From contig JAMLHW010000016.1 of assembly GCA_023954475.1 (NCBI GenBank), positions 1 through 64,000 of the forward strand: a stretch of 64,000 nucleotides of DNA, in the 5' to 3' direction. The notes under the pieces are model-generated. The model worked only from the letters and a program-made list of their open reading frames with translations. It was not told the origin of the DNA and did no database searches. A program made the position numbers and the translations under genes. Origin of the DNA: Anaerolineae bacterium (lineage in GTDB: Bacteria; Chloroflexota; Anaerolineae; Promineifilales; Promineifilaceae). This document shows, piece by piece, positions 52,196 to 64,000 of the stretch (the stretch's first letter is position 1; each line of letters begins with the position of its first letter).

Positions 52196-52996
52196 ATGGA
52201 AGTTTTTGCAGCAGTGGTCGGGGCAGGGATTGTCGTCGCTTCGCCGTTTTTACCGGTTCTGCGACCAGTAGCCAAAGCGGCTGTTAAAGGTGGTTTGGCG
52301 GTATCAGAAGCGGTAGTGGGTACGGCGGTTGTGGTTGGTCATCAAGTGAATGAAGTGGTTTCGAAAAGCAAATCGGGCAGCGCGACTGAATCGGCCGAAA
52401 CACATGCAGACGAAGCCGTAGATGATGCGGCAGTTGAAGCAGAAGCAACAGCAGCCGGCGGCAAAAAGGTTGGACTGGGAACATTGACAGCAGCAGTGCG
52501 CCCCACAGCACAAGCTGTTGCCAAAGCCGGGGTTGCCGTAACCGACAAGGCCAAAGAAGCAGCCAAAGGCGCCGGCAAACAGTGGAGCGATCTCGTGTCT
52601 GAAGCCAGAGCCTCCCAGGGCGATGCCGACGAACCGGATACTGAAGTGGAATTGGTTGTCGAGCGAGAAGCACCAGTCGCTAAAGCACCGGCTGCTGAAA
52701 AACCGATTGTAGAAAAGCCGACAACTAAAGCAGCAGCAGACAAAAAACCGGCTGCAAAAAAATCAACTGCTAAAAAACCAACCGCAGCTCAACCGGACGA
52801 TCTCACACAGATTCGCGGTATCGGCCCCAAAACAGCTACCTTACTAATCGATGCCGGTATCAAAACATATGGACAATTAGCCGCAGCAGATACGGCACAA
52901 CTGCGTGACATTCTGGATCAGGCTGGCACGCGATACCGCTCAATCAATCCGGACGGCTGGCCTGAACAGGCAAGCCAACTGGTGACCACATCGTAG
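52196..52996 (+). CDS. DUF5132-like membrane protein with Lys/Ala-rich linker and helix-hairpin-helix domain
   Basis: AAGGAGAGGGCA precedes the ATG. The 266-residue product starts with a hydrophobic Gly/Ala/Val-rich helix (MEVFAAVVGAGIVVASPFLPVLRPVAKAAVKGG), repeated in part at about 100-120 (AAVRPTAQAVAKAGVAV). It contains KQWSDLVSEARA, a short motif shared with three other proteins of the cluster. A basic AAKKSTAKKPTAAQ linker follows, and the end is a helix-hairpin-helix-like unit (LTQIRGIGPKTATLLIDAG, IKTYGQLAAAD). HhH units bind DNA backbone or proteins. The combination suggests a membrane-anchored tether. Function is unknown. Confidence 0.7.
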   Translation: MEVFAAVVGAGIVVASPFLPVLRPVAKAAVKGGLAVSEAVVGTAVVVGHQVNEVVSKSKSGSATESAETHADEAVDDAAVEAEATAAGGKKVGLGTLTAAVRPTAQAVAKAGVAVTDKAKEAAKGAGKQWSDLVSEARASQGDADEPDTEVELVVEREAPVAKAPAAEKPIVEKPTTKAAADKKPAAKKSTAKKPTAAQPDDLTQIRGIGPKTATLLIDAGIKTYGQLAAADTAQLRDILDQAGTRYRSINPDGWPEQASQLVTTS

Positions 52997-53067
52997 TTAA
53001 CCATTGCCTTAAAGACAGACCGATCAACCTTGTAAGGTATCGATATTTTCGAAGGAGAAAACGAATC

Positions 53068-53319
53068 ATGGAAGTTATTGCAGCACTTCTGGGAATTGGC
53101 GTTGTAGCTGTTTCGCCATTGGTACCGGCACTGCGCCCGGTCGCCAAAACGGTCGTAGCAGGTGGGTTAGTGGTCACAGATGCTGTACGCACCAACGCGG
53201 CCATTGCCGGTGAACATTGGATGGATCTCGTCGCCGAAGCCAAAGCCGAGCGCGCCGCCGAAGCGGAAGCCCGCGCTACGGTTGTTGAAACCATCACCAT
53301 CCCTCTCGACGAAGAATAA
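53068..53319 (+). CDS. Small DUF5132/PacL-like membrane protein
   Basis: A GAAGGAGAAAACGA site precedes the ATG. The 83-residue protein is a paralog of the N-terminal part of the previous one: MEVIAALLGIGVVAVSPLVPALRPVAKTVVAGGLVV, then EHWMDLVAEAKAERAAEAEA and an acidic end. One hydrophobic N-terminal helix with an Ala/Glu-rich amphipathic tail is also the architecture of mycobacterial PacL proteins (DUF1490), which are chaperones for P-type ATPases. It immediately precedes three P-type ATPase genes, so a similar partner role is inferred. Confidence 0.7.
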   Translation: MEVIAALLGIGVVAVSPLVPALRPVAKTVVAGGLVVTDAVRTNAAIAGEHWMDLVAEAKAERAAEAEARATVVETITIPLDEE

Positions 53320-53446
53320 TAACGTATTCGGATTTGCTATTCCGATTCAATCGAGTTTTGATAATTCAACCAACACGCGGTATGAGTTTGGTAAGCAGCA
53401 CATGTCTACCGCACTCTAGTGCCATGCTAAATTGAGCAGTTTGTCT

Positions 53447-55876
53447 ATGCACGCTACCTGCGAAGTCGTTCATCAATCCAGCGGTCGCATCCGTCTACGT
53501 GTGCCTGGACTCAGGGAACAACAGGGCTTGAGCCAGGTTCTGATCACGTTGATACTCAATCAGCCCGGGATTATCCGTGTGCGGTCGAGCGTGGTGACTG
53601 AAAGCGTGATCATTACGTTTGATCCGGCGCACTGGACGCCTGCCACACTGCTCGATGCCTTGCGCGGTCAACCGTCATTTGAGGCCGGGCAGCTCCCGAT
53701 GCCTGAGACGGAAGCCGAGACGCAGCAGGTTGATTTTCCGTTTGGCAGTTGTCAGGTTGCCCACGCGATTCGTGGCCGCGTTCGTCTCAAATCGGCCGAA
53801 TTCGGCAACGAAGATCTGGCGCGTGCTGTGCAGACCTTTTTGGAAAGACAAGCCGGCATCCGGCGCGTGCGCTTCAATCTGCGGGCGGAAAGTGTGGTTG
53901 TCGATTATGACCCGGTTACATGGGATGCGCAGTCTCTGGCGCTGCTGATCAAGGCATACAATCCGCAGCCGGAAGAACTCGCACTCATTTCGGCCGAAAA
54001 TACCGCCCCACCCCAGCACACGATCAGACAATCCCAAAAGGAAGTCATGGTTGCCGGTTCGGCACTACTGCTCAGCCTGGTCGGTGGCCCGGCGGCACCG
54101 CTGGCAGTGGGATTACTCTGGTTCAGTACGCGCTCCATCTTCGAACGCGCCTACCACACCCTGTTGCACGACCGCAAACTCACCGTCGAATCACTCGATG
54201 CGGCTGCAATCTCCGTCCTGACTCTGCAAGGCATGTTCTGGCAGGTCGCGTTGCTCAACCTCATGCTCTCCAGCGCTGAACTGCTTCGCGCCCGTACGCA
54301 AGAGCAGGCACGCCGCGAACTAACCGATGTTCTCGACTTCATGACAGACAGAGCCTGGATTGAGCGCGACGGTCAGATCATCTCCATTCCCGCATCTGAA
54401 CTGCAACCAGACATGCTCGTTTTCGTTTTCCCCGGTGAGCGCATTCCGGCTGACGGCGTTGTGACACGCGGTCAGGCACTGGTCGATCAACATATGCTCA
54501 CCGGCGAATCAATGCCCATCGTCAAAGAGATCAGTGACGACGTATACGCCGCTACGGTTGTGCGAGAAGGCGAACTACAATTGCGGGTAACCCGCTCCGG
54601 CGACGAAACCCAGGCAGCACAAATCGTGCACTTGATCGAAAGTGCACCCATCTTCGATACGCGGGCGCAAGATTACGCGCAGCGCTGGGCCAACCGGCTG
54701 GTTCCCTACAGCTTTATGGGAGCGGGCATTCTGGCATTGACCGGTAATTTTGCCCAGGCGGCGGCACTGCTCGTCATTGACTACGCGGCTGGTTTCAAAA
54801 TATCGGCACCGACGACGATCATGAGCGCGATGACCAAAGCGGCACGCCACGGTATTTTCATTCGCGGAGGGCGTCATCTGGAGCAGTTGGCTGAAATCAA
54901 CGCGATTGTCTTTGACAAAACGGGGACGCTGACTATTGGTTCACCGGAAGTTGTCAACATCGCGGTGCTGAGTACAGACTGGTCTGAAGATGATGTATTG
55001 TCCTTTGCGGCTTCGGCCGAACAATGTCTGACGCACCCGGTTGCACTCGCTGTAACCAATCTGGCTCTCAGCAGAGGGCTGCCCGTACCGGCGCGTGACA
55101 GTTTCGACTATCAACTCGGCCTTGGTGTTGCGGCCAACGTCGACGGCCACACAGTTCTCGTCGGCAGCCATCGATTCCTGGCGGCAGTTGGCGGTATCCA
55201 ATTTGACAGCCGCGCCGACTACGCCCTGCGCCAGATCGAAGCACGCGCCGCGTCACCCCTTTGCATTGCCATCGACGGCGAGCTGGCAGGCATGTTGGGA
55301 CTGGCCGATCCCATTCGCGCAGAAGCAGCCAATGTCATGCGAGCATTGCGGCAGCGTGATATTGACAAAATTGTCATGCTGACTGGCGATCGCGCACCGG
55401 TTGCCCACGCCGTTGCCCGCGATTTGGGTATTGATGACTATGTCGCCGAAGTTTTCCCTGCCGACAAGCTGGCTGCGGTCAAGAAGTTGCAGGAACAAGG
55501 GTACGCGGTGGCTGTGATTGGGGACGGCATCAATGATTCACCTGCATTGACGCAAGCTGATGTCGGTATTGCGGTCAATGGCGGCACGGCGCTGGCTCAG
55601 GAATCGGCCGATGTCGTTTTCCTGCAAGGTGATTTGCACAAGCTCATTGAAGCAATTGACATTTCCCGCGAAGGCATTGCCCTCGTGCGCCAGAACTGGG
55701 ACATCGTACGCATCCCCAACACTATCGGCCTGGGGCTGGCCTTTACCGGTTTTATCGGCCCACTGGGCGCATCGATTCTCAGCGACGGCGCGGCGCTGGT
55801 AGCCGGCAGCAACGCACTGCGTCCGCTGTTGAACAACGGCACAAAACCAGACGGGGAGGCTGCGCCAGATGCGTAA
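53447..55876 (+). CDS. P1B-like metal ATPase 1 with two HMA_2-type domains and no CPC motif
   Basis: ATG 53447 is chosen; an upstream TTG at 53432 is in frame and neither has a clear ribosome site. The product is about 809 residues. Two HMA_2-like modules lie at the N-terminus (SSGRIRLRVPGL and IRGRVRLKSAEF, each followed by a VRVR/V-V-DYDP strand), without CxxC. The pump core has TGESMPIVKE, IVFDKTGTLTIG, SAEQCLTHPVALAV (HP motif) and VIGDGINDSPAL. The fourth-helix motif reads LLVIDYAAGFKISAPTTI, where ordinary P1B pumps have ACPCALGLATP. The cargo is therefore not a standard CPC-type Cu/Zn set. It is first of three tandem homologues. Confidence 0.88.
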   Translation: MHATCEVVHQSSGRIRLRVPGLREQQGLSQVLITLILNQPGIIRVRSSVVTESVIITFDPAHWTPATLLDALRGQPSFEAGQLPMPETEAETQQVDFPFGSCQVAHAIRGRVRLKSAEFGNEDLARAVQTFLERQAGIRRVRFNLRAESVVVDYDPVTWDAQSLALLIKAYNPQPEELALISAENTAPPQHTIRQSQKEVMVAGSALLLSLVGGPAAPLAVGLLWFSTRSIFERAYHTLLHDRKLTVESLDAAAISVLTLQGMFWQVALLNLMLSSAELLRARTQEQARRELTDVLDFMTDRAWIERDGQIISIPASELQPDMLVFVFPGERIPADGVVTRGQALVDQHMLTGESMPIVKEISDDVYAATVVREGELQLRVTRSGDETQAAQIVHLIESAPIFDTRAQDYAQRWANRLVPYSFMGAGILALTGNFAQAAALLVIDYAAGFKISAPTTIMSAMTKAARHGIFIRGGRHLEQLAEINAIVFDKTGTLTIGSPEVVNIAVLSTDWSEDDVLSFAASAEQCLTHPVALAVTNLALSRGLPVPARDSFDYQLGLGVAANVDGHTVLVGSHRFLAAVGGIQFDSRADYALRQIEARAASPLCIAIDGELAGMLGLADPIRAEAANVMRALRQRDIDKIVMLTGDRAPVAHAVARDLGIDDYVAEVFPADKLAAVKKLQEQGYAVAVIGDGINDSPALTQADVGIAVNGGTALAQESADVVFLQGDLHKLIEAIDISREGIALVRQNWDIVRIPNTIGLGLAFTGFIGPLGASILSDGAALVAGSNALRPLLNNGTKPDGEAAPDA

Positions 55877-55915
55877 CGACAGGCGGCTGCCCTCCAACCT
55901 GTGTGGGGTGAAACG

Positions 55916-58318
55916 GTGAGCCTTTTCGATTTCGCCCAGAAAATAACGCCGTCGAGCTTATGGCCCGATAATCGCGCCAATGGTTCGGCCGAAAAATCCG
56001 GTGCTGCCAACGGCGCACGCAACCACTCAGATAACGGTGCAAAACAGAACGGCCACAAAACTGCACCCTTATCGCGTACCGCGCCAAGCGCCAACGGAAC
56101 CAATACCGCCATCACATTTGAAGTCGCGCATCATGTGCCGGGCCGCGTACGGCTGCGCATTCCACGGCTGGCGCGCGACGCCGCATTTACCGACCGCCTC
56201 ATCACCGAGGTTGAGTTACTGCCTTCGGTGACCGCTGTCCGCGCCAACCGCCGCACGCAATCGCTCGTTGTCGAATATAAGAAACTGTCTGCCCGCAGCA
56301 CGCTTCCGACCGCTATGGCACAGCAGTTGGGGCGTGCCATTCAAGATGCGGCTGCCGGCAAAACAGCATTGGATGTGACACAGTACACGCCAGCTTCGGC
56401 CGAAAATTCAGTCGGCTTTGGTCGCACCTATTACCTGCAAAAACTGACCTTACCCGTCCTCGGCCTGGGGCTGAGCGCCGGTGTCGTCGCCGGCATGGCC
56501 ATTCCCCCCGTACTCGTCGGCGGCACTATCCTCATTGCCGCTCTGCCCATTTTCAAGCGCACGGCAGAGGGCATTCGTGATGAGAAACGGCTCACCGTCG
56601 ATTTCCTCGATTCCACGACCATCGTCCTGTTGACCGCCCAAACCAGTTTTGCACCGTCCGCCTTTATTGTCGGCGTCATCGAAGGGTCAGAAGTACTGCG
56701 CGACTGGACAGCGCGACGCAGCCAACAGGCCAGCCTGGCGCTGCTAATGGACCAAGAGCGCCTGGTGACCGTCGAACACGACGGCGAACAATGCCTGACG
56801 CCGGTCGAAGAGGTGGTTGTCGATGACATCATCATCGTCTATCCCGGTGACCAGATTCCGGTAGACGGCGTGATACTGGACGGTCAGGCAATGGTCGATC
56901 AGCATCAGGTCACGGGTGATTCCATTCCGGTTCTGTGTACTGCCGGCGACAGCGTCCACGCGTCCACATTGGTGTTGGAGGGCACATTACGCCTCCACGC
57001 CCAACATACAGGTCATGAGACGCATGTCGGGCAGGTCATGGCAGCGATGCAAACAGCCCCTGCTACAGACACGCGTGTCAGCAACTATGCACGCAAAGTA
57101 GGCAACTGGGCGGTTCTGCCGACGTTGGCAATCGGCGGCGTTGTCTTTGGCGCATCGGGTAATCTGGCCCGTGCGACCAGCATCGTCAGCATGGATTTGG
57201 GAACCGGCATGCGCGTTTCGGCACCGATTGCTATCCTGACAGCACAGACAAATGCAGCGCGTCGTGGCATTTTGATACGCAGCGGACAGGCGCTGGAAGC
57301 GTTGTCTCAGATCGACACAATTATATTTGACAAAACGGCAACGTTGACAGAAGGCCGCGCCAAAATCATATCCGTTGATATTGTGAACGATTCGATTTCG
57401 GCCGACTATCTGATCACACTGGCGGCATCGGCCGAACAAACCCTCGGGCACCCGATTGCCGAGTCGATTGTACGCTATGCACACGATCTCGATGTCGCCA
57501 TCCGCCCGTGTTCAGCGTGGCAGTACAGCACTGGCCTGGGCGTAGCCGCGACCATTGACGAGCAGACAGTCCATGTCGGCAATCGCCATTTTATGGCCCA
57601 GTTGGGCATCGATGTCACAGAGCTGGAGGCGGCACGTGAGCGCCGTCTGCAAAGTGCGACGCATGTCTATGTGGCAGTGGGCGACGTGCTTGCCGGTGTG
57701 ATTACGTGTGCGGACCCGCTTCGGCCGAATGCCGCCACCGTTATCGACCACCTGCAAAACGCGCAGATCACACCGCTGTTGGTGAGCGGAGACAGCCGGA
57801 CGGTCGTATCAACTGTAGCCGAGACGCTCGGTATCGCTACAGAATACGCCTTTGCGGAGATGCTGCCGGAACAAAAATTGCACGTAGTGCAATCTCTGCA
57901 AGCCCAGGGCCATCGCGTCGCCTTTGTCGGTGACGGCGTGAATGACGCCGCAGCGATGGCACATGCCGATGTCTCGATTACATTGGGTGGTGCAACTGAT
58001 CTGGCACTGGAATCGGCCGATATTGTCCTCACCAACAGCGATCTGGGCGATTTGCTTAACGCAAGGGACATTGCTCGCTACGCCATGCGCATCATCGGGC
58101 AAAACAAAGCGCTCAACGTGATACCCAATATCAGTGGCATCGCCTACGCTTCCGTAGCGGTTATGAATCCGCTTTTCGGCGTGGTGATCAACAATGGGTC
58201 TGCCGCATTATCCGCACTTAACAGCTTGCGGCCTCTAAAAGCGCCACAGAAGTATGCCGACCGTTCACGCATAGCAGCAACCGGCAAGTCAGTTATTGAA
58301 ACGGGGGACACAGTATGA
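55916..58318 (+). CDS. P1B-like metal ATPase 2 with altered TGES and DKTGT motifs
   Basis: GTG 55916 (after GTGTGGGGTGAAAC) is preferred to GTG 55901. The product is about 800 residues. It has an Asn/Ala-rich start, one HMA_2-like module (HHVPGRVRLRIPRLARD), and the fourth-helix segment SIVSMDLGTGMRVSAPIAI without CPC. The actuator motif is TGDSIPV (usual TGES) and the phosphorylation motif is FDKTATLTEG (usual DKTGT), while the phosphorylated Asp, the HP motif (TLGHPIAESI) and VGDGVNDAAAM are kept. Both changes affect residues that are nearly invariant in active pumps. It may turn over slowly or act as a regulatory or structural partner of its neighbours. Its stop overlaps the next start. 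Confidence 0.85.
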   Translation: MSLFDFAQKITPSSLWPDNRANGSAEKSGAANGARNHSDNGAKQNGHKTAPLSRTAPSANGTNTAITFEVAHHVPGRVRLRIPRLARDAAFTDRLITEVELLPSVTAVRANRRTQSLVVEYKKLSARSTLPTAMAQQLGRAIQDAAAGKTALDVTQYTPASAENSVGFGRTYYLQKLTLPVLGLGLSAGVVAGMAIPPVLVGGTILIAALPIFKRTAEGIRDEKRLTVDFLDSTTIVLLTAQTSFAPSAFIVGVIEGSEVLRDWTARRSQQASLALLMDQERLVTVEHDGEQCLTPVEEVVVDDIIIVYPGDQIPVDGVILDGQAMVDQHQVTGDSIPVLCTAGDSVHASTLVLEGTLRLHAQHTGHETHVGQVMAAMQTAPATDTRVSNYARKVGNWAVLPTLAIGGVVFGASGNLARATSIVSMDLGTGMRVSAPIAILTAQTNAARRGILIRSGQALEALSQIDTIIFDKTATLTEGRAKIISVDIVNDSISADYLITLAASAEQTLGHPIAESIVRYAHDLDVAIRPCSAWQYSTGLGVAATIDEQTVHVGNRHFMAQLGIDVTELEAARERRLQSATHVYVAVGDVLAGVITCADPLRPNAATVIDHLQNAQITPLLVSGDSRTVVSTVAETLGIATEYAFAEMLPEQKLHVVQSLQAQGHRVAFVGDGVNDAAAMAHADVSITLGGATDLALESADIVLTNSDLGDLLNARDIARYAMRIIGQNKALNVIPNISGIAYASVAVMNPLFGVVINNGSAALSALNSLRPLKAPQKYADRSRIAATGKSVIETGDTV

Positions 58319-60945
58319 CGACGATGAACGGATCATCATCCAACGGCGCTCAAGCAGGCGGAGGTTTCCGGTTGCCTGGTTGGAAATTCTGGCAGCGCGC
58401 ACAAACACCAGCACCTAAAGCCAACGGTACAGCACAAAAAGCATCGGTGAAAGGCTCGGTGGCACTGGTCACCACAACAGACGGCGACCAGACAACACAA
58501 ATACAATTCCAGATCAAGCATTGGGTTCGGGGACGTCTACGCCTGTCCATTCCGCGTCTGGTCTACGATACGGAGTATGGCGACCGTCTGCAATACCTGA
58601 TCGTCGGCACCAGTTCAGCGTTTAGCGTACGTGTCAACACAAAGGCACAGACACTCGTCATTCGCTACGATCCGGAAAATGTCGATCCGGCCGAATTCTT
58701 GCAGGAGATCGTCATTTGTGTCAAAAATGCCTCTAAACCGGAAGCCGCGCTGGCAAAATACAAAGAAGAGCCGGAAGAGGTTGAGCAAATCAACTATCTA
58801 AAACGCCTTGGTCTGCCAGGCGTGGGTTTGGCACTCGTATTAGGCACGTTCGCAGGTCTGGCTGTACCACCCGCTTTACTGGCCGGCGTGATTACCGTTT
58901 CCGCCATCCCTGCATTCCGCCGCGCCTACGAAGGTATTCGTTACGAAAAGAAATTGAACGTCGATTTCCTCGACTCGACAGCCATTGTCGCTCTCACGGC
59001 AACCGGTTTTTACTTCCCACCCGCTTTGATGATTGGCTTGATTGAATCAGGCGAAATCATCCGCGATTTGACCGCGCGCCGCACAGCTCGTGCCAATCTC
59101 GATCTGCTGGATTCTCTGGGCAAAACGGCTCGTGTGGAGCGCGGCGGCATCGAAATAGAGTTGCCTTTGGCGGAAGTCATTGAAGGAGACATTGTCGTCG
59201 TCTATCCGGGCGATCAGATTCCGGTTGACGGGACAGTTGCCAGTGGATTGGCTTTAATTGATCAACAAAAATTGACCGGCGAGTCGATTCCGGTCACACG
59301 TGAATCAGGGCAGGATGTCTTTGCTGCCACGCTGGTTGTCGATGGATCACTGCGTATTGAAACGCGGCGGACGGGTGATCAAACCCGTGCCGGTATCGTC
59401 GTTTCACTGATGAAATCCGCACCGGTTCACGATACCCGTATGGAAGATTACGCCAAAAAAGTAGGCGACAGAATTGTGATTCCGACACTGGCACTGGGCA
59501 CGGCTGTGACTTTTGCTACTGGCGGCAACATTGTACGTGGCGTCGGTGTAATCACCCTCGACATCGGTACAGGTGTGCGTGTCTCTGTGCCGACGGCCAT
59601 CCTCGCTTCGCTGACCTACGCAGCACGCAATGGCGTCTTGATCCGCAGTGGGCGCGCCATTGAGCAGCTAGCTAATGTAGATACTATCGTTTTCGACAAG
59701 ACCGGTACCCTCACACAGGGCAACGCCGGTGTCGTGGGCATTTACATCAGTGAACGCGCTGTCGATAGCTGGGAAGTGCTGCAACTGGCGGCAACGGCCG
59801 AACAGGGATTGACCCACCCGGTAGCTGAAGCAATTGTCCGACACGCACGCGAGAATGAAATTTTCGTCGGAGAGTGCGACGAATGGGAATATCACGTCGG
59901 TCAGGGCATTGAGGCACAGATCAACGGACGCAACATCTATGTCGGCAGTGGGCGCATGATGCGTAATATGGATATTCCGATAGAGGCCTTTTTGAGCGCT
60001 AACCCGGAAATCGAGGCCAGTGCTGCATCTCAGGTCTACGTCGCTGAAGACGATGCGCTGCTCGGCATTATTTTGTACAAAGACCCTGCTCGCCCTGAAA
60101 GTGTTGAGGTTATTAACGATCTGCATCGGATGAACATTACGCCGTACATGTTGAGTGGTGATATGCAGCGGGTAGCCGACGCCATTGCCGCCGAACTGGG
60201 CATAGCGCCGGAGCATGTGTATGCTGAAGCCTTCCCCGAGCGCAAGGTGGAAGTCGTCAAGGAGTTGCAGGAAAGCGGCAAGACGATCGCCTTTGTCGGT
60301 GACGGCATCAATGACTCGGCCGCATTGGCCCATGCCAGTGTTTCGATTTCTTTTGCGGGTGCAACTGATATGGCGCGGGAAACGGCCGATATTGTGCTGA
60401 TGGACGATGATCTTTCGGCTTTGATTTTGGCGATCCAGATTTCTAAACACGCCTTGCGTGTGGTGCGTCAGAATGTGGGGATTGTCGTCGTACCCAATGC
60501 GACCGGTATGGTGATTGCAGCTCTGATCGGTCTCGATCCGGTATTGGCTGTGTTGCTCAACAATGGATCGGCGATTGCAGCCGAAATGAATGGTTTTCGG
60601 CCGTTGTTGGGACCACCAGGACGCAAGCAGAGTTTGCCAGCACCAGAATCGTATTTTGCGGCCGCTTTGCAGGAAACAACACTCGAAAACCTTGCTGAGG
60701 CTGCAATAGACAACGAAGTAATTGAATTGGAAGCTACGGTCAACAATGGTCACGTAACGATTGTCGAGCACAATGAGCAAGGTAATGGACACACAATTGC
60801 CCTTGAACTGGATACGGATAGCGGGCAAGAATGCGAAATTAGCTGTGATGATACGGGCAGCAATGGTTTAGAGGCGCGTAGTTTTGAGGTGCACGCGGCA
60901 TCTGTCGGCCATGAGCCGATTCAGAATGGACATGCTCCTCTGTAA
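58315..60945 (+). CDS. P1B-like metal ATPase 3 with extended C-terminus
   Basis: The ATG overlaps the preceding stop (ATGA), so translation is coupled. The 876-residue product has a Gly/Ala-rich start, one HMA_2-like module (HWVRGRLRLSIPRLVYD...VRVNTKAQTLVIRYDPENVD), TGESIPVT, VFDKTGTLTQG, GLTHPVAEAI and VGDGINDSAAL, all canonical. The fourth-helix region is VITLDIGTGVRVSVPTAIL, again without CPC and with the Asp and Arg seen in ATPase 2. After the last helix a tail of about 90 residues is acidic with several His and Cys (VEHNEQGNGH, ECEISCDD), which could bind metal. No exact TCGGCCGA occurs, but several one-base variants do. Confidence 0.88.
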   Translation: MTTMNGSSSNGAQAGGGFRLPGWKFWQRAQTPAPKANGTAQKASVKGSVALVTTTDGDQTTQIQFQIKHWVRGRLRLSIPRLVYDTEYGDRLQYLIVGTSSAFSVRVNTKAQTLVIRYDPENVDPAEFLQEIVICVKNASKPEAALAKYKEEPEEVEQINYLKRLGLPGVGLALVLGTFAGLAVPPALLAGVITVSAIPAFRRAYEGIRYEKKLNVDFLDSTAIVALTATGFYFPPALMIGLIESGEIIRDLTARRTARANLDLLDSLGKTARVERGGIEIELPLAEVIEGDIVVVYPGDQIPVDGTVASGLALIDQQKLTGESIPVTRESGQDVFAATLVVDGSLRIETRRTGDQTRAGIVVSLMKSAPVHDTRMEDYAKKVGDRIVIPTLALGTAVTFATGGNIVRGVGVITLDIGTGVRVSVPTAILASLTYAARNGVLIRSGRAIEQLANVDTIVFDKTGTLTQGNAGVVGIYISERAVDSWEVLQLAATAEQGLTHPVAEAIVRHARENEIFVGECDEWEYHVGQGIEAQINGRNIYVGSGRMMRNMDIPIEAFLSANPEIEASAASQVYVAEDDALLGIILYKDPARPESVEVINDLHRMNITPYMLSGDMQRVADAIAAELGIAPEHVYAEAFPERKVEVVKELQESGKTIAFVGDGINDSAALAHASVSISFAGATDMARETADIVLMDDDLSALILAIQISKHALRVVRQNVGIVVVPNATGMVIAALIGLDPVLAVLLNNGSAIAAEMNGFRPLLGPPGRKQSLPAPESYFAAALQETTLENLAEAAIDNEVIELEATVNNGHVTIVEHNEQGNGHTIALELDTDSGQECEISCDDTGSNGLEARSFEVHAASVGHEPIQNGHAPL

Positions 60946-61033
60946 GCTGTTACTATTTAAGCGCATTCAACGAGCTGCCGGCAAACATTATTGTCGTGCG
61001 TGACGGGTGTAAAGTCACCCGAAGAGGAATATC

Positions 61034-61618
61034 ATGCCTATAGAGACATTTACTGTTTTTGTCGCTGAGCAAGCTGTGGGCATTGCTATCGGTGTTGTTG
61101 CCGTTGCCGCTGCACCCAAAATAGTACCGGGCCTGGCCAGGACGGCACAAAATGTTAAGCAAAGAGGCACTGAGCTTGCTCTGGATTCAGCAAATGGGCT
61201 GAATGCTGCTGTTGTGCCTGTCAAAACGGCGGGTGAATCCGTATATGCACAGGTTGTGGGCGGGTTGCATTGGTATGGTGAGCAATGGGATGGTTTGATA
61301 GCTGACGCACGGGCGATGTACACGGTGCCGATGTCCGGATCAGGAGAGCGTGTGGCGGCTGTCGTTGCGACTGCACCGCCAATTACTGATTTACCGGGTT
61401 ATCTGCGCGTGGAATTGAAGCAAGTGCGCGGCAATCCTGATCTGGCTGATGATGTTGCAACTCTGCTCAACACGCTCCCCGGTGTGACAAAAGTACGCGT
61501 CAGTCACGCCTCAGGGAATGTGTTATTGTTGTACGATACAGAGCAGTATCCTTCGGCCGATTCGTTGCGACAGACGATTGCGGCATCACAGATCAAGACA
61601 AATCTGGATACCAAATGA
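61034..61618 (+). CDS. Membrane-anchored HMA_2-type protein
   Basis: The 194-residue protein has an N-terminal hydrophobic helix (VGIAIGVVAVAAAPKIV), an amphipathic middle with HWYGEQWDGLIADARAMY, and a C-terminal HMA_2-like module (LPGYLRVELKQVRGNPDLADDV...PGVTKVRVSHASGNVLLLYD). The same W-x-x-L-I-x-(E/D)-A-R signature occurs in the proteins at 52196, 53068 and 62627. It lies 88 bases after ATPase 3 and its stop overlaps the next start. A role as accessory or chaperone for the ATPases is inferred. Confidence 0.7.
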   Translation: MPIETFTVFVAEQAVGIAIGVVAVAAAPKIVPGLARTAQNVKQRGTELALDSANGLNAAVVPVKTAGESVYAQVVGGLHWYGEQWDGLIADARAMYTVPMSGSGERVAAVVATAPPITDLPGYLRVELKQVRGNPDLADDVATLLNTLPGVTKVRVSHASGNVLLLYDTEQYPSADSLRQTIAASQIKTNLDTK

Positions 61619-61923
61619 TTGTCTGCCAGTTCAATTTTGTGCTGCCAATCGAGCCGCAATCATTGATGAAAATGACCCGACAGGTAATCGTGGAAAACGG
61701 CGGTACGGTGATAGGGGATTTGCCTCTGATCAAAGTCACGGTGCCGTCACCGCTGGGAAACATCGATGCAGTCTGCAAACTCATCGCTGATTCCACGATC
61801 AATATTGCGGTCACGCGAAAGCCCGAATTGGTTTCGTGTGATGTGATACGGGATAAACTGGTAGCGTACCTGAAGCAAGGTGTAAAACTACAATCCCAGA
61901 TGACAAAATCACAGGGTAACTAG
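61615..61923 (+). CDS. Small protein of unknown function within the metal cluster
   Basis: The 102-residue frame starts at an ATG overlapping the previous stop (ATGA), which supports coupled translation. Its sequence (MIVCQFNFVLPIEPQSLMKM, VIGDLPLIKVTVPSPLGNIDAV, ISTIN-like strand IADSTINIAV) suggests a small alpha/beta fold, with Cys at 4, 54 and 75. No transmembrane helix or HMA_2 pattern is clear. No family was recognised. Confidence 0.6.
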   Translation: MIVCQFNFVLPIEPQSLMKMTRQVIVENGGTVIGDLPLIKVTVPSPLGNIDAVCKLIADSTINIAVTRKPELVSCDVIRDKLVAYLKQGVKLQSQMTKSQGN

Positions 61924-61936
61924 AGGAGCGTGTAAG

Positions 61937-62578
61937 ATGAGTGAACAAACGGACACAGTCGCGACTTCGGCCGAAGCGCAGCTCCAAAGCCTGGGCAAGA
62001 CTGAGAGCAAAACAGCCGGGCGGATGAGGATGCGCGTACACTCTGAATTGCGTTCGGCCGAATCAATGACGCAAATTAAGACAAATCTGGAAGCACACCC
62101 CGACATACAGGATGTGCAAATCAATCAACGCACCGGCAGCGTCGTCATCACACACAGTCAAAAGCATGACAGCCATACCCTGTTTTGGGAAGCTGTCAAA
62201 GAAATCGATCTCGTAGCGGAAGTAGCGCTCGAGGTACCCGAAGAGGGAGACGATGGAGAAGATCCAACCGCAAAAGTGGAACAACAATTGGCGGATATTG
62301 CCTACAGGATTGACAAATCCATCTACAAACGGACAGGCGAAAATTTGCATATGGGGCTGCTCATTCCAGCCGGCATTGCCGGCATAGGCATTGCACAAAT
62401 AGCCATCTACGGCATCGGCCTGGAACTACTGCCCGGCCCCGTCTTGTTGTGGATAGCTTATGACATCTACAAACGCATTGGCAAAGAACCGCCATTTACC
62501 AAACGGGATCAACAGCGAGCCATTCCGGAAGAATTGCCTGAAAACACCACTGCTGAAGCCATGCCGGAGGCGGCCTAA
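61937..62578 (+). CDS. HMA_2-type domain fused to a hydrophobic hairpin
   Basis: A GAGGAGCGTGTAAG site precedes the ATG. The 213-residue protein has a degenerate HMA_2-like module (KTAGRMRMRVHSELRSAES...IQDVQINQRTGSVVITH), an acidic linker (VPEEGDDGEDPTAKVE), then two hydrophobic segments (LLIPAGIAGIGIAQIAIYGIGLELLPGPVLLWIAYDIY) and a charged tail. This layout (metal-associated domain plus a short membrane hairpin) resembles accessory proteins of ferrosome-type clusters, by recollection of those clusters rather than alignment. Function inferred as a membrane partner of the ATPases. Confidence 0.65.
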   Translation: MSEQTDTVATSAEAQLQSLGKTESKTAGRMRMRVHSELRSAESMTQIKTNLEAHPDIQDVQINQRTGSVVITHSQKHDSHTLFWEAVKEIDLVAEVALEVPEEGDDGEDPTAKVEQQLADIAYRIDKSIYKRTGENLHMGLLIPAGIAGIGIAQIAIYGIGLELLPGPVLLWIAYDIYKRIGKEPPFTKRDQQRAIPEELPENTTAEAMPEAA

Positions 62579-62626
62579 ACTGAAACTGTAATTTTCCGAA
62601 CCACAACATAGCAGGTAGGAGAGAAG

Positions 62627-63079
62627 ATGACAACGATTACTATTGACGACATTTCGGGAAAGGCGCGTGACGCAGGTACATCTCTGACGAACGCATTGCC
62701 ACCGTCTGTTACAGACGCCGGGCGCAAAGCATATGATTCAGTTGCCGGCGGTGCACAATGGTACATTGAGCAGTGGGAAGACCTGATCGCAGAAGCCCGG
62801 GAAATGCGCGCTTCGGCCGAACTGAACGATATTCCGGCTGAAGATTTCCTGGCCAACTTGATCGAAGCCAAAATCGACTCGGACATTCCCGGCCGCCTAC
62901 GCGTACGTCCTGCACAGTTGAAAGGCCGGAGCGAATTGGCGCGTCAATGCACAGAATTACTGGCTGGTGTAGATGGTATTAGTGAAGCCCATGTCAGCGC
63001 ACTGACCGGCAGCGTTCTGCTTTTCTATGATACAAACCATTTTGAAACCAGCGAGGAATTATTGCTCGCTCTGGGCTAA
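62627..63079 (+). CDS. HMA_2-type accessory protein
   Basis: The 150-residue protein follows a GTAGGAGAGAAG site. The N-terminal half is amphipathic and contains AQWYIEQWEDLIAEAREM, clearly related to HWYGEQWDGLIADARAM of the protein at 61034. The C-terminal half is an HMA_2-like module (DIPGRLRVRPAQLKGRSELARQ...ISEAHVSALTGSVLLFYDT). Unlike its paralog it has no strong N-terminal membrane helix. It is the fourth carrier of the shared W-x-x-L motif. A cytosolic adaptor role is inferred. Confidence 0.7.
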   Translation: MTTITIDDISGKARDAGTSLTNALPPSVTDAGRKAYDSVAGGAQWYIEQWEDLIAEAREMRASAELNDIPAEDFLANLIEAKIDSDIPGRLRVRPAQLKGRSELARQCTELLAGVDGISEAHVSALTGSVLLFYDTNHFETSEELLLALG

Positions 63080-63138
63080 ACAGCGGGACAAATGCCGACA
63101 ACCGGGCAGCAATCGGATTGCTCCGATTGTCTCATCAT

Positions 63139-64000
63139 ATGGCTAATCAAGCAAAAAAACCTGCGTCTGACAAGCAAAAACAATCGCGCCCTGTCATCAT
63201 TGACGGTGAAACGGTCTCTTCATCCTCTGCATCATCAACGCAAGCAGAGGATGTGACCGCCGCTGTCAGTCGCGTATTTGCGAGCCTCAAGCGGGCGACA
63301 CAAGCGACTGTTGCTGCACCGGCGCAGGTGGTGCAAGATTCATCCAGTCAACTCGTCCAATCAGCATCTGAACTGCAAAAGAAAGCGGCTAAGGCAGCGA
63401 TCAAAGCGTATTTGGCGCAGCAGGAAAACGCGAAACCGCCTGCAATCAATGCCGCCATTGAAGCTAAAGCACAAGAGCTGGTTCAAGGAACCAAGAGCAC
63501 GCTCAAGCATGTGCGTGATGCTGTTGATCCACGTGTGGTGGTGGGTGGGCTAGCTGGTTTAACGGCAGGCGAGATCGTCGGTGGTGTTGTCGGTGGCGTG
63601 GCTGGGGGCGCCGTCGCCGGGCCTGCGGGTGCGGTTGTCGGCGCGCAGGTTGTCGGATTTTCGGCTGGTATGCTCGGCCTGAAATTGGGCGCTGATGCAG
63701 TATATGACAATCTGGAAGCCAAGCGGACAAATAAGGCAAACAAAACACCCGGCGAATCGTCGCGTAAAACCAGTGTCGGCCGATTTCTGCAAATAAAAAC
63801 CGGTGAGCGCCTCGGCGAAATTGTGGGGCTGACATCCGGTGCGTCATTGGGACTGGTCATCGCCGGCCCGGCCGGTGGTTTGGTGGGCGCGGTACTTGGT
63901 GAAGCGCTCGGTGGGCACATCGGCGAAGATTTGAATCGGCCGAAATCCGACAAACAGACTCAACGACAATCAACCGGCACGATTTCGCAGTGGGTCGACC
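63139..64000 (+). CDS. Glycine-zipper membrane protein, 3' partial
   Basis: A frame opens at ATG 63139 (MANQAKKPASDKQKQSRP) and is still open at the window end, giving at least 287 residues. After a Ser/Ala/Gln-rich start there is an amphipathic helix (VSRVFASLKRATQATV), a DPRVVVGGLAGLTAGEIVGG glycine-zipper stretch that continues as GGVAGGAVAGPAGAVVGAQ, and a second zipper GLTSGASLGLVIAGPAGG. Glycine zippers pack closely in membranes and can bend or line them. It lies 60 bases after the HMA_2 gene in the same direction, so it belongs to the cluster. No exact family was recognised. Confidence 0.7.
   Translation, partial: MANQAKKPASDKQKQSRPVIIDGETVSSSSASSTQAEDVTAAVSRVFASLKRATQATVAAPAQVVQDSSSQLVQSASELQKKAAKAAIKAYLAQQENAKPPAINAAIEAKAQELVQGTKSTLKHVRDAVDPRVVVGGLAGLTAGEIVGGVVGGVAGGAVAGPAGAVVGAQVVGFSAGMLGLKLGADAVYDNLEAKRTNKANKTPGESSRKTSVGRFLQIKTGERLGEIVGLTSGASLGLVIAGPAGGLVGAVLGEALGGHIGEDLNRPKSDKQTQRQSTGTISQWVD

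Follow-up and report, generated by a model that had tools for sequence, protein, structure and literature searches.

Here we describe an operon at the end of the window (the whole stretch of DNA analysed, 64,000 nucleotides at the start of a 115-kb Chloroflexota contig), which encodes three consecutive P-type ATPases with HMA_2 domains, two DUF5132 proteins, three small HMA_2 proteins, one small unknown protein and one glycine-zipper protein, all on the plus strand, and which extends beyond the window end. The three pumps belong to an unnamed clade next to the P1B-6 (FezB-type) ATPases, in which both the Cys of membrane helix M4 and the HN motif of M6 are lost. We tentatively read the operon as encoding an ATP-driven membrane platform, tethered through HMA_2 and DUF5132, whose pumps would act on a non-classical substrate; our confidence in this reading falls just short of even. 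The genes are as follows.

A, 52196..52996, plus strand: 266 aa, with an N-terminal transmembrane (TM) segment, DUF5132 (Pfam, 1.2e-5), an Ala/Lys/Pro-rich linker and a C-terminal HHH_5 (Pfam, 4.7e-9).
B, 53068..53319, plus strand: 83 aa, with a TM segment and DUF5132 (W.DLVAEAKAE; Pfam, 1.3e-8).
P1, 53432..55876, plus strand: P-type ATPase, 814 aa, with two N-terminal HMA_2 domains (Pfam E1-E2_ATPase, Hydrolase and HMA_2).
P2, 55901..58318, plus strand: P-type ATPase, 805 aa, with one HMA_2 (same Pfam families).
P3, 58315..60945, plus strand: P-type ATPase, 876 aa, with one HMA_2 (same Pfam families) and an ATGA overlap with P2.
S1, 61034..61618, plus strand: 194 aa, with a TM segment, a DUF5132-like W..DLIADAR segment (alignment) and a C-terminal HMA_2 (Pfam, 2.4e-5, 24.8 bits, sub-threshold at the cut-off of 30 bits).
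S2, 61615..61923, plus strand: 102 aa, no Pfam family, described from its predicted structure.
S3, 61937..62578, plus strand: 213 aa, full-length HMA_2 family protein (Pfam, 1.4e-11, profile 11-152) with a TM hairpin.
S4, 62627..63079, plus strand: 150 aa, with a DUF5132-like WEDLIAEAR segment (alignment) and HMA_2 (Pfam, 2.1e-9).
GZ, 63118..64000 and running on to 64524, plus strand: 468 aa, glycine-zipper membrane protein with a C-terminal LuxR/GerE helix-turn-helix (HTH; Pfam).
Get3d-type protein, 64525-65721, outside the window and directly after GZ without a gap: ArsA_ATPase (2.6e-65) and ArsA_HSP20 (2.2e-17).

P1B pumps are named by the metal-binding residues of their membrane helices. 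In the aligned M4 motif, the CPC of CtpC-type pumps corresponds to YSC (or ISC, YAC) in P1B-6 and to FGT, IGT, LGT, YAA and similar in the new clade, including DYAAGFKISAP in P1, DLGTGMRVSAP in P2 and DIGTGVRVSVP in P3. (An equivalence of 'SAPT' with CPC was considered and is wrong, the alignment giving CPC = YSC = FGT.) The M4 Cys is found in 6/6 P1B-6 references and in 0/19 active clade members, while the M6 HN of P1B-6 and CtpC (located in TM6; CtpC carries both CPC and HN, PMC9374683) is replaced by NN, SD, SN or SH in 19/19 (SDG in P1, NNG in P2 and P3). Both features are present together in 8/8 P1B-6 and CtpC-type references and missing together in all 19 active clade members. With the M4 Cys and M6 HN lost, the substrate is most likely not a thiophilic or borderline heavy metal. 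The catalytic motifs are complete in P1 and P3 (DKTGTLT, TGES and GDGxND) and variant in P2 (DKTATLT and TGDS), with DKT-LT, GDG-ND and TG(E/D)S retained throughout.

The pumps fall in a single clade (support 100/99 to 100/100) apart from the P1B-6 set and the CtpC-type pumps. This clade is joined with the P1B-6 set with support of 100/99, leaving CtpC-type, CopA, ZntA-like and CoaT pumps outside, and its nearest relatives are the P1B-6 (ferrosome-type) ATPases, of which it may be the sister group or an inner branch. In the best tree it lies outside the P1B-6 set (set support 95/90 and 96/92), and the alternative of joining the fez-type pumps to the clade is only marginally rejected (approximately unbiased test, p 0.052); these fez-type references are P1B-6 pumps on Vibrio, Azospirillum, Cereibacter and Arcobacter plasmids, named fez-like by their layout and not proven ferrosomes. 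The original prediction, which proposed a ferrosome-like or novel metal-membrane cluster, had counted against itself a CPC-type Cu/Zn placement without small-protein synteny; the pumps instead branch with P1B-6, and their small partners are syntenic. Within the clade, P2 groups with P3 and P1 stands apart, which makes the three pumps ancient paralogues. A recent tandem duplication is rejected, since the cyanobacterial orthologue of P3 is nearer to it than P2 is.

When 400 Chloroflexota genomes were searched with a profile, 11 scored 676 bits or more, all with a Cys-free M4, followed after a clean gap by CPC, CSC and SPC pumps at 585 bits or less, such that the clade is present in ∼3% of the sampled Chloroflexota. 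Outside this phylum, members occur in the cyanobacterium Gloeothece (on a plasmid) and on a Deinococcus plasmid. A long-branched pump of Methylobacterium radiotolerans plasmid pMRAD05 (L134:26-2479; ADLGTGIRMAAP, FFNNAS) is probably also a member; its plasmid is small and mobilizable and also carries CorA, CYTH and TMEM43-family genes. Separately, an unrelated P1B-like ATPase outside the clade (locus L114, genome G480 contig 45) also has a Cys-free M4 (QAPIVYTLRLASP), and scores lower.

The grouping of these genes far exceeds what chance would give. Every one of the seven HMA_2 matches in the 5.1-Mb window genome lies inside the cluster, and in 12 further clade-bearing Chloroflexota genomes nearly all such matches lie inside clusters of this kind. 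The synteny survey in Chloroflexota that had been proposed finds the order A-B-P1-P2-P3-S1/S2-S3-S4-GZ retained in a sister genome (G015, the Anaerolineales metagenome-assembled genome (MAG) HKST-UBA48), while HMA_2 proteins adjoin the pump in most single-pump loci and S3-like neighbours are found in most related loci (a search for S3 in plasmids gave no match). The triple-pump set is present in just these two genomes of the family, and a scan of genome contigs with P3 returned the sister MAG alone. Between the two genomes, nonsynonymous divergence (dN) is 0.12-0.37, whereas synonymous divergence (dS) is saturated (2.3 or more) or not computable, from which it follows that all operon genes are under purifying selection. 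B is 84% identical to its sister counterpart, both P2 variants (DKTATLT and TGDS) are retained, the sister GZ protein also carries GerE (2.1e-16), and S2 is there fused to the N-terminal half of S1.

In the HMA_2 alignment, from which a response regulator (L131:6296-6955) was later dropped, PGRxRxR is the sole conserved motif, with no conserved Cys and no CxxC. A W..DL.AEA(K/R) segment is common to DUF5132, S1 and S4. Proteins A and B contain no Cys, 2 and 1 His respectively, and no C-terminal His/Asp metal motif (B ends in PLDEE), and a search of the cluster proteins turned up no DUF4405, ferritin, Feo or metal-binding tail. The metal-storing compartment of the original prediction is therefore unsupported, the M4 Cys, M6 HN and HMA_2 Cys residues being likewise missing.

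DUF5132, for which no mention was found in the open-access literature, is present in 8/11 clade-bearing genomes vs 17/389 others (Fisher 1e-8, an approximate value because the two samples overlap without being identical). Its profile resembles a combined DUF1490 and DUF6110 set (hhalign 82%, E 1.1e-5; shared TM segment, K-GG and DLVAEAR) but reaches 3% against DUF1490 alone, so kinship to PacL is a lead only. Pfam gives no DUF1490 or DUF6110 match in the cluster proteins, and DUF6110 was not detected among 301 sampled Chloroflexota, in a search that had no positive control and so does not establish absence. Relatives in DUF6110 also lack the C-terminal metal-binding motif.

The predicted S2 model is confident (pLDDT 91), with a beta-alpha-beta4-alpha topology of BamC-N/KA1-like helix-grip arrangement; a fold search returned this common arrangement only (Z up to 9.5) and no clear relative. 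The S3 model (pLDDT 55) is unusable. A link to polyhydroxyalkanoate granules, prompted by a phasin PhaH match of A (in its low-complexity linker) and the S2 topology, was rejected, PF09650 having no match in the window genome. The helix-hairpin-helix at the C-terminus of A (window 52790-52990), behind the Ala/Lys/Pro linker, is an unusual pairing with DUF5132.

The gene directly after GZ encodes the same two domains as Get3d, ArsA_ATPase and the alpha-crystallin-like C-terminal ArsA_HSP20. Get3d is known from photosynthetic bacteria and plants (PMC10248533); the window protein differs in being a second, divergent copy within a pump operon, in addition to an ordinary copy in the same genome. 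A full-length ArsA_HSP20 protein adjoins the pump in 5/13 genomes (window, G151, G159, G167 and G214; chance ∼2e-8), and four of these five proteins form their own clade. This link provides a concrete candidate partner for a bacterial Get3d.

A related cluster is carried by plasmid Cy782201 of Gloeothece verrucosa PCC 7822, where it is annotated just as heavy metal ATPase, DUF5132 and HMA2. Like the window operon, it encodes a P3 orthologue (52-54% identity), DUF5132, HMA_2 proteins, a glycine-zipper protein (here with a His tail; its resemblance to the glycine-zipper part of GZ is subject to caution over low complexity) and a second ATPase-like paralogue. Unlike the window operon, it includes DUF1345, an SDR and a YegS/diacylglycerol-kinase (DAGK)-type enzyme with HMA_2 at its C-terminus (L064:21932-23434), with no adjacent Get3d seen, and the second paralogue, a 522-aa HMA_2 protein, is a dead pump that has lost DKTGT and has a shrunken A domain. 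It was considered as a P2 orthologue and not accepted as such, since its branch is long and its placement unsure. That HMA_2 occurs on small membrane proteins and a lipid kinase as well as on active pumps and a dead one would suit a docking role better than metal chaperoning; if HMA_2 is such a tag, the 'heavy metal' label given to many of these proteins misleads. No second kinase-HMA_2 fusion was found in a plasmid search. Gloeothece PCC 7822 is culturable, and its close orthologue makes the system experimentally approachable.

In the proposed mechanism, the pumps would couple ATP hydrolysis to the transport of a substrate that needs no Cys/His ligands, be it a hard cation, a lipid or some other small solute. 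The non-metal-binding HMA_2 domains and PacL-like DUF5132 segments probably tether the pumps and small membrane proteins into one platform, the Get3d-type ATPase, specific to the cluster, probably serves as a carrier or chaperone for the hydrophobic small proteins, and the glycine-zipper/LuxR protein may report the state of the membrane and regulate the genes. Gene content, clade membership, motif loss and conserved gene order come directly from the sequences; the tethering, the type of substrate, the part played by Get3d and the regulation are inferred. Several observations weigh against this reading. M4 still carries a conserved Asp together with a basic residue, and M6 still carries Asn/Ser, which makes a metal site with oxygen ligands possible; P2, with its DKTAT and TGDS, may be impaired; the similarity to PacL is just suggestive; Get3d is missing next to the pumps of the sister genome and in most single-pump loci; and a single genome supplies the link to a lipid kinase. 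A more far-reaching version, possible though clearly less probable, is that a new P-type ATPase subfamily, arising from the P1B-6 line and devoid of metal ligands, supplies the energy for an organelle or membrane microdomain and transports a non-metal or hard-ion substrate. HMA_2 would serve there as the docking tag, and the membrane would be built by a dedicated Get3d, joined in cyanobacteria by the HMA_2-tagged lipid kinase.

Among the rival explanations, a true ferrosome-like compartment survives best, though we consider it unlikely. Here the pumps would fill vesicles with iron or a different metal, using oxygen ligands (M4 Asp/Thr, M6 Asn/Ser), with the small proteins shaping the membrane. 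The closest relatives are P1B-6 pumps, which are listed as Fe(II) transporters (PMC7558416), and C. difficile ferrosomes require FezA and FezB (PMC12574912). The window pumps share with P1B-6/fez systems the HMA_2 N-terminus, the GRxRx motif, an M4 motif that lacks CPC and is preceded by D and followed by K/R, as well as adjoining small HMA_2 and membrane proteins, which occur in P1B-6 loci also. However, every active clade member lacks the M4 Cys and HN, and the window operon differs further in its row of three divergent pumps, its DUF5132 and Get3d, and its lack of iron genes, whereas the Cereibacter P1B-6 cluster adjoins FeoA and a TonB siderophore receptor and the Arcobacter one a weak rubrerythrin-like match. 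FezC of D. magneticus is a DUF4405 cytochrome (PMC10979944); DUF4405 has no match in any cluster protein, and FezC may not be universal. In a side observation, the ferrosome-like P1B-6 clusters of Cereibacter azotoformans pORIO2 (L070), Arcobacter (L071) and Vibrio (L066) lie on plasmids, and are possible mobile ferrosomes.

A lipid-handling system is somewhat more doubtful still. In this case the ligand-free pumps would transport a phospholipid or a similar amphiphile and so shape a specialised membrane, with the lipid kinase and Get3d as suppliers. The Gloeothece kinase with its C-terminal HMA_2 favours this, as do Get3d structures with phospholipid-like density and a bound tail-anchored protein (PMC10248533), but a single kinase fusion was found, the window cluster contains no lipid genes, and the best-matching model for the pumps, TIGR01525, indicates a P1B core and not a P4 flippase core.

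It is improbable that the pumps act chiefly as pseudo-transporters with a structural or regulatory role, in which ATP turnover gates assembly and not transport. The fully dead HMA_2 pseudo-ATPase of Gloeothece and the P2 variants are consistent with such a role; against it, P1 and P3 have all their catalytic motifs intact, and all three pumps are under purifying selection. Least probable is a PacL/CtpC-type efflux platform for resistance to Zn or similar metals, with DUF5132 as PacL: CtpC and PacL1 do build membrane foci (PMC9374683) and the combined DUF profile is suggestive, but DUF1490 alone reaches just 3%, the C-terminal metal motif is missing, the operon has no metalloregulator, and CtpC-type pumps carry CPC and HN and branch outside.

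The ferrosome- and PacL-like comparison of the original prediction is a reasonable one, although its interpretation is supported only in part. The P1B-6 kinship, the syntenic HMA_2 and small membrane partners and, suggestively, the DUF5132 profile agree with the comparison, and in PacL1-CtpC as in the window a P-type pump is accompanied by a small partner that has a TM segment and is rich in Glu/Ala. Since the M4 Cys, HN, DUF4405 and metal tail are missing, the operon is placed beside the ferrosome and PacL-CtpC assemblies and not as a member; it would resemble them in outline. A clade in which the ATP-driven machinery and the ferrosome-like neighbours persist but the metal residues are gone permits a direct test of the pump, HMA_2 and scaffold roles apart from metal.

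As to gene layout, Pfam bears out the predicted plus-strand run of two DUF5132 proteins, three consecutive HMA_2 ATPases, further HMA_2 proteins (S1 below threshold), a small unknown and a glycine-zipper protein. Of the 'several' ATGA overlaps, two are present, one at 58315 (P2/P3) and one at 61615 (S1/S2), the remaining gaps being 14 to 113 bases. The start and order of the predicted unit (52196-64000) hold, but the unit runs on through the HTH of GZ and the Get3d-type gene. A ribosome-binding-like GGAGAGGG sits upstream of the ATG of A, and P1 starts at TTG, with a possible ATG 15 bases further downstream. Past the Get3d-type gene, a radical-SAM-like gene and a HypF-like gene on the other strand can be read from the sequence.

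Six further loci in two other Chloroflexota families (L046, L048, L050, L055, L059 and L062; families f33 and f68) encode giant P-type-ATPase-like proteins of ∼1180-1210 aa beside a 158-214 aa HMA_2-like protein and DUF5132, with an ArsA gene some kb off in L050 and L062. These appear to constitute a separate, related-looking system.

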